A stretch of DNA of 64,000 nucleotides from Halobacterium sp. R2-5 (GTDB taxonomy: Archaea > Halobacteriota > Halobacteria > Halobacteriales > Halobacteriaceae), in NCBI RefSeq assembly GCF_011734195.1, contig NZ_JAANTH010000001.1, forward strand, positions 558,001-622,000. The letters run 5' to 3'. The notes below the pieces were generated by a model. It had not been told where the DNA came from and made no database searches. It worked only from the letters and a program-made list of their open reading frames with translations. Of the stretch, positions 5,660 to 59,725 are shown in pieces. The position numbers and the translations under genes are program-made. Numbering within the stretch: position 1 is the first letter of the stretch; the number at the start of each line of letters is the position of its first letter.

Positions 5660-8353
5660 CTACGTTCGTCGCTTCAGCTCGTTGAGGACGTTCAGCGCCT
5701 CGACGGGAGTGAGCTCGGCGATGTCGATCTCGTCCAGTCGGGACGCGAGGTCGCTGTCCTCGGCGTCCCCGCTGCCGTTCTGCTCGCTCTCGGACGCCGA
5801 CGCTCCGGTCGGGTCCGACTCCTCGTCCGACGGCTCCGGCGCGTCGAGGAACTCGCGGGCGCGCTCGACGACCGTCTCCGGGACGCCCGCGGTCTGCGCG
5901 ACCTCGATGCCGTAGGACGCCGTCGCCGGGCCCTCTCGGACCTCGTGCTGGAACGTAATGCCGTCGTACTCGCGGTGCTCGCACGACGAACCCCCACTCG
6001 TCTCACTCGCGGGGACGCCGTCCTCTGCGCGCGTCGCGCCGAAGTGGAGGTTCAGCGCGTCGTCGAGGCGGTCGGCGTCCGCGGTGAGCTCGTGGTGGTG
6101 GGTCGCGAACAGCGTCGTCGCGCCGAGCTCGTCGTGGACGTACTCGGTGACGGCGCGCGCGATGGCGAGGCCGTCCGTCGTCGACGTGCCGCGGCCGACC
6201 TCGTCGAGCAGCACCAGGGAGTCCTCGGTGGCCGCGCGCAGAATCGAGGACAGCTCCGTCATCTCCACCATGAACGTCGAGCGCCCGCCCGCGATGTCGT
6301 CGCTCGCGCCCACCCGGGTGAAGATGCGGTCGACGACGCGCAGGTCCGCGCTCCCCGCCGGGACGAAGCTCCCGGCCTGCGCGAGCAACACGATGAGCGC
6401 GACCTGGCGCATGTACGTCGACTTCCCGCTCATGTTCGGACCCGTGATGACCGCGACCCGGCGCTCGGGCGTGAGGCCGGTGTCGTTCGGCACGAACCCG
6501 GCCTCCGTGCGCTCCACGACCGGGTGGCGCCCGCCCTCGACGTGGATGCCGTCGCCGCCCACCTCGGGGCGCGCGTAGTCGTGGCTCGCGGCGACCGTGG
6601 CGAACGACGCGAGCGCGTCCACGGCCGCGACCGCCGCCGCCGTCGCCTGCACGCGCTCGGCCTCCTCGGCGACTCGGTCGCGTACTTCGCAGAACAGCTC
6701 GTACTCGAGGTCCTGGGAGCGCTGCTCGGCGCGCACGATGTCGTCCTCGCGCTCCTTCAGTTCGGGCGTGACGAACCGCTCGGAGTTCTTCAGCGTCTGC
6801 CGGCGCTGGTAGTTCTCCGGCACCGCGTCGAGGTTCGGGTTCGTCACCTCGATGTAGTAGCCGTGGACCGCGTTGTGGCCGACTTTCAGCGACTCGACGC
6901 CCGTGCGCTCGCGCTCCTGTTCCTCCAGGTCGTCGATCCACTGCTTGCCCGAGCGCTCGGTCTCCCGGAGGTCGTCCAGCGTCTCGTCGTAGCCGTCCCG
7001 GATGACGCCGCCCTCCGTGAGCTCCTGGGGCGGGTCCGGGACGATGGCCCGAGAGAGCAGGTCCCGAATCTCGGGGAGGTCGTCGAGGTTCGCGCGCAGC
7101 TCGCGCAGCTTCTCGCTGTCTGCGTCCGCCAGCAGGCCCCGAATCTCGGGCACCACGTCGAGGGTGTCCTTCAGCGCGCGCAAGTCCCGAGCGTTCGCGC
7201 GGCCCCGCGCGACGCGGGAAATCAGGCGCTCTACGTCGTAGACGTCCCGCAGGTGCTCGTGGAGCTCCTCCCGAGTGAGGGGGTCCGCGAGCAGTTCGCC
7301 GACGGCCTCGTGGCGCGCCTCGATCTCGTCGGTGTCGGTCAGCGGCCGGCGCAGCCAGTCCGTCAGCGTCCGCCGGCCGAGCGCGCACGCCGTCTCGTCG
7401 ACGACGTCCACGAGCGCGGTGCCCTCCGCGCCGTGGACGCTGCGCTGCTCGAACACTTCCAAACTTCGGAGCGCCACCGCGTCCATCTGGAGGTACTCGC
7501 GGGGGTCGTACCGCGTCAAGTGGTTCAGGTAGTCCAGCCGGTCGCCATCTTCACCCCCTCGCGTGTACTCGGCGTAGTCCAGCAGCGCGCCGCAGGCCGC
7601 CACCTCGGCGTCACTCGCGAGCGCGTCCGCGCTCCCGAAGTACGCCTCGACGGTCTCGCCGGCGCGCTCGGCGTCGAACGCCGCGTCGTCGTACTCCGCG
7701 ACGAACGTCCCGTCCTCGAAGCGGTCGGTTGCGACGCCCGGCCCGGTCACGAGCTCCGCGGGCGCGAATCGTCCGAGTTCGTCCCGGACGCGCGCCGCGT
7801 TCGGGAGGCTCGTCGCGTAGAAGTCCCCCGTCGAGACGTCCAGCAGCGCGAGGCCGAACCCACCTGACTCGCGGGATTCCCCGCTCGCCGTTCCCGTGGC
7901 GCTGCGCGCCACGCTGTCTGCCGCGAGCGCCGCGACGAAGTTGTTGTCGTCGCCCGCGAGCAGTTCGTCCTCGGTCAGCGTCCCGGGTGTCACGACCCGG
8001 GTGACCGCGCGGTCGACGACCCCCGTGACCTCGTCGGGGTCCTGCACCTGGTCGGCGACCGCGACCCGGTAGCCCGCGTCCAGCAGGTCGTCGATGTACG
8101 GCTCCGCGTTGTCTATCGGCACGCCCGCCATCGGGTACCGGCCCGTGGAGTCCTCGCGGGCCGTCAGCGTGATCTCGCAGATGCGGGCGGCCGCCTCCGC
8201 CGCGTCGCAGAACAGCTCGTAGAAGTCCCCGACCTGGAAGAGCACGAGCGCGTCCTCGTAGCGCCGCGTGAGCTCGAAGTACTGGCTCATCATCGGCGTC
8301 AGGTCGCCCTCGTTCTCGGCCATCTGGTCGGGTGGCCCGAGCGCCGCGTCCAT
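5660..8353 (-). CDS. mutS: DNA mismatch repair protein MutS
   Basis: 897-residue MutS1. Domain order is standard: mismatch-recognition domain with the [11 protein letters not shown] motif, the core and clamp, then the ABC ATPase with Walker [10 protein letters not shown] (about residues 636-645) and Walker B/signature DEVGRGTST (about residue 716), and an acidic tail ending in a C-terminal helix. The frame can be extended to a GTG at 8389, but the ATG at 8353 fits the family better. Two low-complexity insertions stand out: residues about 144-164 (rich in S/A/G, containing a DNA hairpin) and about 780-798 ([11 protein letters not shown]). No mutL lies next to it. Confidence 0.95.
7896..7912. 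repeat. Perfect hairpin inside a mutS insertion
   Basis: GTGGCGC-TGC-GCGCCAC: 7-bp arms and a 3-nt loop, lying in the part of mutS that encodes a 20-residue Ser/Ala/Gly-rich insertion in domain I. The arm/loop design is the same as the hairpin cluster in truD at 58407-58519. Confidence 0.6.
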
Positions 8354-51182: not shown

Positions 51183-53048
51183 ATGACCGAGACGCAAGGC
51201 GAACTGGCGAGCCTCTCGAAGTTCATCTTCCGGGCGCCGCACTGGTACACGAGCGTCGCGCTCTCGCTGGTCATCGCGGCGCTCGCCGGCGTCGCCGCCT
51301 TCGACAGCCAGTACGTCCTCGAGGACGCCTGGCAGGGCGTCTTCTTCATCGGCGTGCCGACCGTCGTCGCGAGCCTCGCGACCACGCCCGTCGACCGCTT
51401 CTTCGGCGGCCAGCTCACGTACAGCCGGTCGTCACTGCTAGCGTTCGCGTGCGAGGTCGTGGTCGTCGTCGTGCTCGTCGCCGCCGGCGTCGTCTCCACG
51501 CTCACCGGCCGCTTCGGCCAGAACTTCGTCTTCGACGCGCTCGTCGCCGCGCTCGGGCTGGTGTTCGCGATCCGGTTCCTCGTCGTGCTCGCGGTCTCCC
51601 GGGACTCGCCGCTGGTCGCCGCGGTCCCCGCGAGCATCCAGACTGCCACCGCAGGGGTCCTGCTGTTCGTCTACAGCGGCACGATGAACCTCCTCACGAC
51701 CGGCGGCAGCATCGCGAGCGCGTACCTCTCCCGGCCGGCCGAGGCGCCGCCGGAGATCCAGTACGCGTTCGTCCCCCAGGACTTCGTGCTGCTGGCGTTC
51801 CTCACCGCGCTGTACGGCGTCGCGGCGTACGCGTTCGTCGTCGCCATCGACCGGCCGTGGCAGCGCAGCCTCGACGTCAGCGTCCTCGACTTCATCAGCG
51901 GGTTCATCGGCCACATCGCCGAGGGCACCCGCGAACTGGAGGGGTTCTTCGAGCAGATCGGCGAGGAGGCCGTCGTCCCCGTGACGGTGCTGGCGTTCCG
52001 GACCACCGACGGCCACGAAGAGAAGGCCCGCTTCGTGCTGCCGATGATCCACCCCGGACCGATGGGCGAAATCGGCGGCGGCAACCTCCCGCAGCGGGTC
52101 GCCGAATCCGCTACCGGGCTGGCGTTCCCGCCCCACGCCACCGCCGGCCACGACTTCAACCTCGTCACCGAGCGCGAGGTCGAGACGCTCATCGACGCCG
52201 CCGACGACGCCTTCGAGTCCATCGAGTACGGCGACAGCGCCAGCGCCGGCGTCCGCGTCGAGGAGGGCGAAGCGAAGCTGCTCGGGCAGGCGTTCGGCGA
52301 CGACGCGCTCCTCGTCTCCACGTTCTCGCCCGGCTACGCCGACGACGTCGAGTACGCCGTCGGGCTCGCCGCGACAGCCGAAGCCCGCGTCGAGGGCATG
52401 GACGACGTGCTGCTCGCGGACGCGCACAACTGCAACAACGGCCTGGGCGGCGACGACCTCGGGCACGTCTACCCCGGGAGCAAGCGCTCGTTCGACATGA
52501 TCCGGGGCGCCGGCGAGGCCGCCCGCCGGCTCGACGACGCCGACGAGGGGCCGCTCGAACTCGGGGTCGCGTGGGACCGCACGCCGTGGCGACCCGAGGA
52601 CGGCATCGGTCCGCTCGGCGTCCGCGTCGCTGTCCTCGAAGCCGGCGGCGACCGTACCGCGTACGTGCTCGTCGACGGGAACAACATGGAGCCCGGGCTC
52701 CGCGAGGAGCTCGTGGACGCCCTCGACGCCGTCGACCAGGCCGAAATCATGACCACGGACACCCACATCGTCAACACCGTCGAGTCCACGAACCAGGTCG
52801 GCGCGGCCATCGACTGGGACGAACTCGCGGCGCTCGTCGTCGAGCTCACCGAGGAAGCCGTCGACGACCTCGACCCCGTCGAGGCGGGCATGGCCAGCGA
52901 GCGCGCCGAAGTCACCGTCTTCGGCAACGACCGCACGGAGACGCTCGCCAGCCACGCCAACGCCGTCATCGCGATGGGCGGCGTGGTCGCCGCGCTCGCC
53001 GTGCTCGCGACCGTCACCATCAGCGTCCTCATCTTCTTCCTGACGTAG
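51183..53048 (+). CDS. DUF2070 family membrane protein
   Basis: 621-residue archaeal protein with about seven helices in the N-terminal 240 residues and again one near the C-terminus (about 598-620), separated by a large soluble domain. The middle contains FVLPMIHPGPMGEIGGGNLP and DAHNCNNGLGGDDLGHVYPGS, which are the conserved, metal- or phosphate-like motifs of DUF2070. Function is unknown. Its start lies 5 bp after guaAa, so the two are probably cotranscribed. Confidence 0.88.
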   Translation: MTETQGELASLSKFIFRAPHWYTSVALSLVIAALAGVAAFDSQYVLEDAWQGVFFIGVPTVVASLATTPVDRFFGGQLTYSRSSLLAFACEVVVVVVLVAAGVVSTLTGRFGQNFVFDALVAALGLVFAIRFLVVLAVSRDSPLVAAVPASIQTATAGVLLFVYSGTMNLLTTGGSIASAYLSRPAEAPPEIQYAFVPQDFVLLAFLTALYGVAAYAFVVAIDRPWQRSLDVSVLDFISGFIGHIAEGTRELEGFFEQIGEEAVVPVTVLAFRTTDGHEEKARFVLPMIHPGPMGEIGGGNLPQRVAESATGLAFPPHATAGHDFNLVTEREVETLIDAADDAFESIEYGDSASAGVRVEEGEAKLLGQAFGDDALLVSTFSPGYADDVEYAVGLAATAEARVEGMDDVLLADAHNCNNGLGGDDLGHVYPGSKRSFDMIRGAGEAARRLDDADEGPLELGVAWDRTPWRPEDGIGPLGVRVAVLEAGGDRTAYVLVDGNNMEPGLREELVDALDAVDQAEIMTTDTHIVNTVESTNQVGAAIDWDELAALVVELTEEAVDDLDPVEAGMASERAEVTVFGNDRTETLASHANAVIAMGGVVAALAVLATVTISVLIFFLT

Positions 53049-58300: not shown

Positions 58301-59725
58301 TCAGAGGTCCAGCGGGCTCGTCTTCAGGTACTCGCGGAGGACGACCGTCGCGTAGCTCCCGGAGGGGAGCGAGAACTCGAAGGCGAGCGGGTCGCGCTCG
58401 ACGTCCTCAGAACGCTCTGCGTTCTGATGGGTGGTTCGAGAGACGCCGTCGGCGTCTCTCGTCATCTCGGAAGACTCTGTCTTCCGGCTGACTGCGGAAG
58501 ACGACGTAGTCGTCTTCCGAACGTCGAGGTCGGGACGGAGCAGGACTGCGCGCCGAGTCCCCGAGGAGTCGAACTCGCCGGGGAGGTCGAAGTCCGCGGG
58601 TTCGAGGTCGAGGTCGTCGAGCACCGAGCGCTCGATTTCTCCCGGTTCGCCCTCGGCGAGCTCGGTGTCGGTGCCGACCAGCGGCGCGGTGACGAACGCC
58701 CGACCGCGGGCGCAGTGCCGCGCCATCACGTCCACGCGGTCGGCGGTGACGCGCTGCTCGCGGCTCGAATCCGGGCGCGCCACGCCCTCCGGGGCGTCCG
58801 ATTCCGCGAACCACACGACGTCGCCCTCGACCGGCTCGTGGAACGGCAGCCCGCGCTCCATGCGCTCGGAGAGCATCCGGTTGAACGCGTACGACTGGGC
58901 GGCGTGGACGAACAGCCGCTGGAGGTTCGACGGGAACGTCTCCACGGCGTCCCGGAAGCCCCCGCCGTCGGCGAGCTCGTGGAGCATCGTGCGCTCGTAA
59001 CGCAGCCGGCTCGGGAACTCCGCTAAGGCGGCCTGCCAGTCCCGCGTGTCCTCGACGAAGCGCCGGGCCCGACTGCTGTCCTCGGGCTCGTACTCCGTGG
59101 GGTTGCCGAGGTACGCCATCGCCGCGCTCTCCCAGTCGCCGCGCAGGATGGCGAGCCCGACCTCGTGCGTGACGGGGCGCTTGCTGCCGAAGCGCTGCTG
59201 GCCGAAGTAGTTCGGCACGCCGGGGTCGCCGCCCGCGAACGCCGCGAGGGCGCCGGTGACGGCCTCGGCCTGTTCGGGCGCGTCCGGGTCCCGGACGACG
59301 ACGCGGAACTCGTTGCCCGCGAGGTCGCCGAACGCCAGCCCGCGGCCGGCGCGCCCGACGACCTCGACCTCGGCGTCCGAAATCTCGGGGAGGTCCTCTG
59401 GCTCGACTTCGCGGGCGGCGAACAGCTGCGTGGTGACGGCGTGGCGGTCCTTCGTGCCCGCCCACGTCACGCGCTCGCGGCTCATCCCGAGGCGGTTCGC
59501 GAGCTCGCGGGCGAAGTCGTTGGTGTCCCACGACGTCAGCGTCGCGCGCAGGACGAGCCACGGGTAGTCGCCGACGTCGGCGTCGACGGGCTGGGTGTCG
59601 AACTCCTCGATTTCGGTGACGCGGAAGTCGGCCGGCGACTCCCGGAGGCGGCCGCCGGTGCCGTCGCTGTCGCTGGCGTAGTACGCCATCCCGACGGCGC
59701 GTTCGAGTTCGTGAGCCTCGCGCAT
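58301..59725 (-). CDS. truD: tRNA pseudouridine synthase TruD, with a hairpin-coded insertion
   Basis: 474-residue TruD, which makes pseudouridine 13 in tRNA. The catalytic Asp93 is in [11 protein letters not shown] (residues 90-100), followed by [19 protein letters not shown] and the TruD domain. Between about residues 402 and 441, where family members have a short turn, there is a 38-residue Ser/Thr/Arg-rich insertion encoded by four DNA hairpins (58407-58519). The frame is kept, so the enzyme may still work; the insertion is near the C-terminal core strand ([19 protein letters not shown]). Confidence 0.93.
58407..58519. repeat. Four perfect hairpins in tandem inside truD
   Basis: Hairpins at 58407-58427 (9-bp arms, loop TCT), 58437-58461 (11-bp arms, loop GTC), 58468-58486 (8-bp arms, loop TCT) and 58495-58519 (11-bp arms, loop GTA). 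All four arms are perfect and all four loops are 3 nt. Hairpins 3 and 4 share the arm start CGGAAGAC. The 113 bp keep the truD reading frame. They behave like a palindromic insertion element. Confidence 0.85.

Follow-up and report, generated by a model that had tools for sequence, protein, structure and literature searches.

Palindromic insertion in truD

The window (the whole 64,000-nt stretch of Halobacterium sp. R2-5 DNA that was analyzed) contains truD, in which a series of perfect hairpins interrupts an otherwise ordinary coding sequence. The features, listed in the direction of the gene, are as follows.

58301..59725, minus strand: truD (archaeal tRNA pseudouridine synthase D, 474 aa), with the reading frame open across the insertion
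58403..58522, minus strand: the whole inserted element, 120 bp, GTT...GGAC, encoding a 40-residue peptide; missing in 12 congeneric truD genes, its edges being placed by empty sites elsewhere
58523..58525, minus strand: left target triplet GAC (the GRC side of the GRC-GNC target; consensus from 49 independent sites)
58520..58522, minus strand: element 5' end GTT, seen in 43 of 49 sites
58495..58519, minus strand: core hairpin 1, CGGAAGACGAC-TAC-GTCGTCTTCCG, a perfect inverted repeat with 11-bp arms
58487..58494, minus strand: linker CAGTCAGC, whose CAG, judging from the 60-bp copies, would be part of the core linker CAGCCCA, split by the nested unit
58432..58491, minus strand: nested second double-hairpin unit, 60 bp (hairpin 2, AGATGA, hairpin 3, AACCA), with edges accurate to within a few bases
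58468..58486, minus strand: hairpin 2, CGGAAGAC-AGA-GTCTTCCG, a perfect inverted repeat with 8-bp arms
58462..58467, minus strand: linker AGATGA, conserved among related copies
58437..58461, minus strand: hairpin 3, CGAGAGACGCC-GAC-GGCGTCTCTCG, with 11-bp arms, or alternatively 12-bp arms and a 1-nt loop
58428..58436, minus strand: linker AACCACCCA, which by comparison with other copies consists of AACCA (nested unit) and CCCA (core linker)
58407..58427, minus strand: hairpin 4, the second hairpin of the core, TCAGAACGC-AGA-GCGTTCTGA, a perfect inverted repeat with 9-bp arms
58403..58406, minus strand: element 3' end GGAC, seen in 48 of 49 sites
58400..58402, minus strand: right flank GTC (the GNC side of the target; consensus from 49 independent sites)

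The order within the insertion is GTT, hairpin, CAGTCAGC, hairpin, AGATGA, hairpin, AACCACCCA, hairpin and GGAC. A preliminary description of this DNA had reported four perfect hairpins in truD at 58407-58519, and the inverted repeats were found at these places, all readable with 3-nt loops. Its judgment that such a cluster is beyond chance agrees with 60 third-order Markov simulations of the 64-kb window, in which hairpins with arms of at least 8 bp and a loop of 3 nt occurred at a mean of 6.3 per 64 kb and never numbered more than 2 in any 113-bp span. The segment, taken as single-stranded DNA, had a folding energy of -44.9 kcal/mol (z = -9.3). TruD had been called otherwise normal, and its residues 11-466 match the Pfam TruD family with an E value of 4.6e-146. 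The proposed insertion is clean, as exactly these 120 bp are missing from truD in all 12 other Halobacterium species (one genome per species), but the extent first given was slightly too narrow, the real block being 58403-58522. No comparable element was present in the 80 Halobacteriales truD loci searched.

In the structure of Methanosarcina mazei TruD (1z2z), a short unaligned segment lies between the aligned stretches flanking the insertion point, suggesting that this point is a variable loop. The AlphaFold model of the Halobacterium protein has a mean pLDDT of 67, with about 25 in the insertion block; such low values are consistent with disorder of the inserted peptide but are too weak to build on.

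A perfect single hairpin is also present in mutS (7895-7913), in a variable linker exceeding that of two relatives by about 45 bp. The hairpin had been taken for a match to those of truD, an assignment that we reject, since it is a lone stem without the linkers of the element and chance alone commonly yields single hairpins of this size.

Core element and its distribution

A search for relatives in the genome, as advised in the preliminary description, showed the element to be multicopy, with the hairpins conserved and with copies that code in frame. Dozens of copies came to light when this genome and its genus were searched at the DNA level; most are simpler than that of truD, and the source genome (G000) has roughly 15 loci. 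The core is a 60-bp double hairpin of the form GTT-(hairpin 1)-CAGCCCA-(TCAGAA..NNN..TTCTGA)-GGAC. In the truD copy, the core linker is interrupted between CAG and CCCA by an extra 60 bp comprising two hairpins and the linkers GATGA and AACCA; rather than four arbitrary hairpins, the unit is thus a 60-bp double hairpin enclosing another unit of 60 bp, likewise with two hairpins.

Two-hairpin units with GATGA/AACCAC linkers were found standing alone at L003, L176, L207 and L208. Another species (G008) has the 120-bp composite of truD in frame in one of its genes, and near-full-length composites are present in intergenic repeats of G005; core and nested unit would move as one block. At L280, the core comes directly after the GGAC of a variant unit with the linker CGCACA, the arrangement expected if the right end of the element can itself act as a target. 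The long intergenic repeats of G005 (L169-L174 and L182) have the form GGATTGAAAGGGCG ... GAGGGCTTTC and enclose a hairpin composite; with their long complementary-looking ends, they are possibly a large structured non-coding element.

Using a covariance model (R1) built from 15 copies of the 60-bp core, we detected the core in 11 of the 13 Halobacterium genomes and in 247 of 293 Halobacteriales genomes (~85%). In a phylum sample of 247 genomes, 40 Halobacteriales matched versus a single other genome (about 1 of 204 non-Halobacteriales, E = 6.9e-5). A strict linker pattern with an unconstrained center gave 59 matches in 29 genomes, all of them Halobacteriales, while its reversed control gave none; the centers of the matches were nearly all palindromic, although the pattern leaves them free. 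The element had no significant match in Rfam, and assignment to an Rfam family or a CRISPR repeat was rejected for want of a significant match. In the open literature searched, the core sequence is printed in no relevant paper.

Ends and target site

Over 49 independent sites, the element starts with GTT in 43 and ends with GGAC in 48, and the target is GRC followed by GNC, with C at -1 in 47, G at +1 in 45 and C at +3 in 32. Six further independent copies have empty sites in relatives, the flanks joining after removal of exactly 60 bp; insertions of 60 bp with empty relatives were seen in the genes for DUF2797, NAD kinase, lipoate ligase, TnpB and a PALP enzyme and in the gene at L179. The window itself has an empty site in the lipoate-protein ligase gene (17876/17877), where G002 carries a 60-bp element at the homologous position, and another at 52639-52646 for an 87-bp three-hairpin version that is in frame in G005 (L030/L168). 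Pre-existing hairpins were considered as preferred targets and rejected, the tendency being weak overall (mean arm 4.1 versus 3.5 in controls). Striking insertions into hairpins were seen at L213, L237, L241 and L244.

Conservation of stems and drift of loops

In an alignment of 53 copies fitted to the covariance model, 98.3% of the stem cells pair, and compensatory changes occur in 15 of the 20 pairs (140 compensatory cells). The stem covariation score was 0.370 versus 0.098 in shuffles, and slid controls collapsed; an unfitted alignment gave the same picture. Copies at matching sites differ at 55% of the bases in loops and 8.6% in stems and linkers, compared with 18% in the flanks. Loops of 3 nt predominate among the copies, and in two close pairs (L184/L230 and L283/L284) the sole difference is that one loop is reverse-complemented. 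We infer that these reversed loops are the outcome of arm-to-arm template switching or hairpin flipping; the perfection of the stems may alternatively be due to selection on structure.

Copies inside genes

About two dozen host genes, with coding sequences called from open frames, GC3 and Pfam, carry the element, nearly all in one orientation and frame. Hosts supported by Pfam are those for NAD kinase, NTPase_I-T, fibrillarin, lipoate ligase, ParA/MinD-like ATPase, PALP enzymes, TnpB and a P-type ATPase. Lengths divisible by three were found for 15 of 18 copies in genes versus 6 of 27 non-coding copies (Fisher p = 7e-5). Orientation and codon phase were identical in all in-frame cases examined, and the same frame recurs in the fibrillarin genes and the P-type ATPase. 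The consensus is open in four of its six frames, and among these the in-frame copies use the most hydrophilic. The peptide that they encode is hydrophilic and probably disordered. A codon-phase preference of the target may contribute to the phase bias, but it leaves the orientation bias unexplained.

In fibrillarin genes, in-frame copies lie near the N-terminus at differing positions in Halobacterium (L181), in another genus (L292) and in Natrinema (L346). Several tnpB genes belonging to IS605-type elements also host it, at varied positions and in or out of frame (L213, L229, L234 and L281). Frame-breaking copies in otherwise intact-looking genes are those of the acyl-CoA thioesterase of G005 and G009, the macro-domain protein of G008, two tnpB genes and L228.

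Origin and mobilization

We consider the hairpin cluster in truD to be, with a probability of about 0.85, a copy of a non-autonomous mobile palindromic element of Halobacteriales, one that inserts with defined boundaries and without target duplication, is dispersed in many copies, conserves its stems through paired changes and shows a bias of frame. The core goes in between GRC and GNC with no duplication of the target, so that the site loses nothing. The hairpins would arise on a single DNA strand, or else as cruciforms, to be cut after GRC/GGAC and joined by a protein acting in trans. Template switching from arm to arm would keep the stems perfect and occasionally flip a loop. Copies of 60, 54 or 120 bp keep the reading frame, and selection against gene loss would leave mainly in-frame copies.

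It is possible, though rather doubtful, that the elements derive by shrinkage from IS200/IS605-type ends (PATE-like) and depend for movement on a Y1 HUH TnpA, which would recognize the terminal palindromes and act by single-strand excision on a short target without duplication. The lack of duplication, the fixed short left target, the similar right terminal GGAC and the two palindromes fit such an origin, as do copies lying in tnpB genes (L213, L285) and in palindromes resembling IS605-type ends (L226, L287, L343); moreover, the accessible text of PMC3119063 presents 52-bp PATEs as possibly mobile in Haloquadratum. However, Y1_Tnp (IS200/IS605 TnpA) is absent from the source genome G000, despite its element copies, and likewise from G001, G003, G006 and G010, all element-bearing Halobacterium. 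In a survey of 23 tnpA loci of the genus, in which transposon ends were undelimited and IS1341-type (tnpB-only) ends were left out, few had the core (L305, L306, L312 and L319, with L306 and L312 representing the same tnpB insertion). The 3' side of the target (G at +1) is unexpected for IS605, and hairpin 1 follows GTT directly, leaving little space for a guide sequence. The case for Y1 TnpA as obligatory mobilizer is weakened by the TnpA-less hosts and by the scarcity of core-bearing tnpA loci, and the mobilizing enzyme may have been lost.

Removal or skipping of the element at the RNA or translation level, by splicing or by bypassing like that of mitochondrial byps, would leave host proteins without the peptide. 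A 58-bp frame-breaking copy in the acyl-CoA thioesterase gene (L322/L324), common to G009 and G005 and absent in G011 and the other species, speaks for this, as the 84 codons flanking it, up to a second insert in G005, differ between the two genomes by 10 synonymous and 0 nonsynonymous changes; the macro-domain gene at L196 is also intact on both sides of its 58-bp copy. Nevertheless, we hold skipping to be improbable: the G005 thioesterase looks dead, its second insert further on containing a stop, and removal would make unnecessary the frame-keeping lengths that are in strong excess in genes.

Even less probable is an ordinary archaeal MITE, which would have terminal inverted repeats and be inserted by a DDE transposase that duplicates the target. 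The element is short, multicopy and of non-coding origin, as a MITE would be, and the flanks of the truD and L030 copies read GACGT/GACGT and GACAC/GACAC, respectively. However, the left and right flanks disagree beyond GAC in most copies. Copies with GGC on the left and GAC on the right correspond to empty sites reading GGC, GGT or GGG, so the right GAC is the element's own end and no target is duplicated; a 5-bp duplication, suggested by the truD flanks, is ruled out by these empty sites at other loci. That GACGT seems to be repeated on either side of the truD copy results from the target preference together with the element end GGAC, and the inverted terminal bases number only about 4 and are imperfect. 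Growth of the hairpins on the spot, through slippage or template switching within truD and with no mobility involved, would explain why loops invert and stems look actively kept perfect, but it is the least credible of these readings and is refuted as the origin by the dispersed family, the same linkers and ends occurring at dozens of unrelated sites with precise empty sites and in most Halobacteriales genomes sampled.

Beyond its identification as a mobile palindromic element, we tentatively propose, at odds slightly short of even, that the family is an undescribed and near-ubiquitous class of haloarchaeal mobile DNA, characterized by paired hairpins with 3-nt loops, insertion between GRC and GNC without duplication, no known transposase, nesting, movement as composites, and the repeated lengthening of host proteins by copies in one set orientation and frame. 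Most known examples of palindromic repeats that enter reading frames come from Rickettsia and a few other bacteria. The present family is homogeneous, its ends, target and empty sites are defined, and its hosts include core genes (truD, fibrillarin and NAD kinase among them). It offers a clean comparative system in which to ask by what means such elements travel, how the perfection of their stems is maintained and with what frequency selfish DNA contributes new segments to proteins. Since Haloferax volcanii and other haloarchaea are genetically tractable, movement can be tested.

Comparison with known systems

The 49 sites and the empty sites revealed neither the long terminal inverted repeats nor the target duplication of MITEs. 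GTAG-REPs with RAYT are likewise unmatched, as no GTAG was found at the element ends in the 49 sites and no Y1_Tnp in G000. Repetitive hairpin-forming elements of organelles are also small paired hairpins that spread. Mitochondrial double-hairpin elements, which in the accessible text of PMC2800124 are small paired hairpins spreading between sites, belong to an organellar, unrelated setting and are likened here by description only.

PATEs and IS605-type terminal palindromes, as portrayed in the accessible text of PMC3119063, resemble the core in having two palindromes, no duplication and haloarchaeal hosts. In PATEs the palindromes are set back from the ends by some 20-50 bp, whereas hairpin 1 of the core starts at base 4, and TnpA is missing from several hosts of the core. 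In the same accessible text, SMR-A of Haloquadratum is an element of ~110 bp that causes no target duplication, inserts into IS605-type palindromes and has an enigmatic mobilization (PMC3119063). It is set apart, by description only, by prominent terminal inverted repeats, and in-frame insertion into host genes, as seen with the core, is not part of the description there. On that text, SMR-A is the nearest haloarchaeal description, and the truD element family might overlap with it (HqIRS42/43/55).

Rickettsia palindromic elements (RPE) are short palindromic units that lie in frame in many unrelated genes and add a peptide to the product, RPE-4 and RPE-6 being CGTC-REPs (PMC10969869, PMC3733652). 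The truD element family is likewise found in frame in unrelated protein genes, and the likeness to Rickettsia elements drawn in the preliminary description therefore holds for behavior. It gives no evidence of descent from them: consensus, loop length and target differ from those described, and the family is confined to Halobacteriales. Compared by description, RPE are bacterial and were ~150 bp as first described, whereas the haloarchaeal core measures 60 bp, combines fixed linkers with two 3-nt-loop hairpins and is found only in Halobacteriales.

CGTC-tagged REPs of bacteria form hairpin dimers, insert into palindromes, have intragenic copies and lack an associated transposase, and pseudouridine synthase genes are among their recurrent hosts (PMC3733652). 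Their head-to-head dimers have outward-facing ends with an unpaired CGTC tag, to which the ends of the core may be compared: the left one reads CGTT... and the right one GGACG, or CGTCC when read on the opposite strand, but the outermost C and G are supplied by the target. The CGTC-REPs have loops of 4-5 nt, A/T in the first two stem pairs and a CCA tail, whereas in the core the loops are predominantly 3 nt, hairpin 1 starts with C-G and G-C and the second hairpin with T-A and C-G, and there is no CCA tail, the linker being CAGCCCA. In function, the haloarchaeal element is closest to the Rickettsia palindromic elements and the CGTC-tagged REP dimers.
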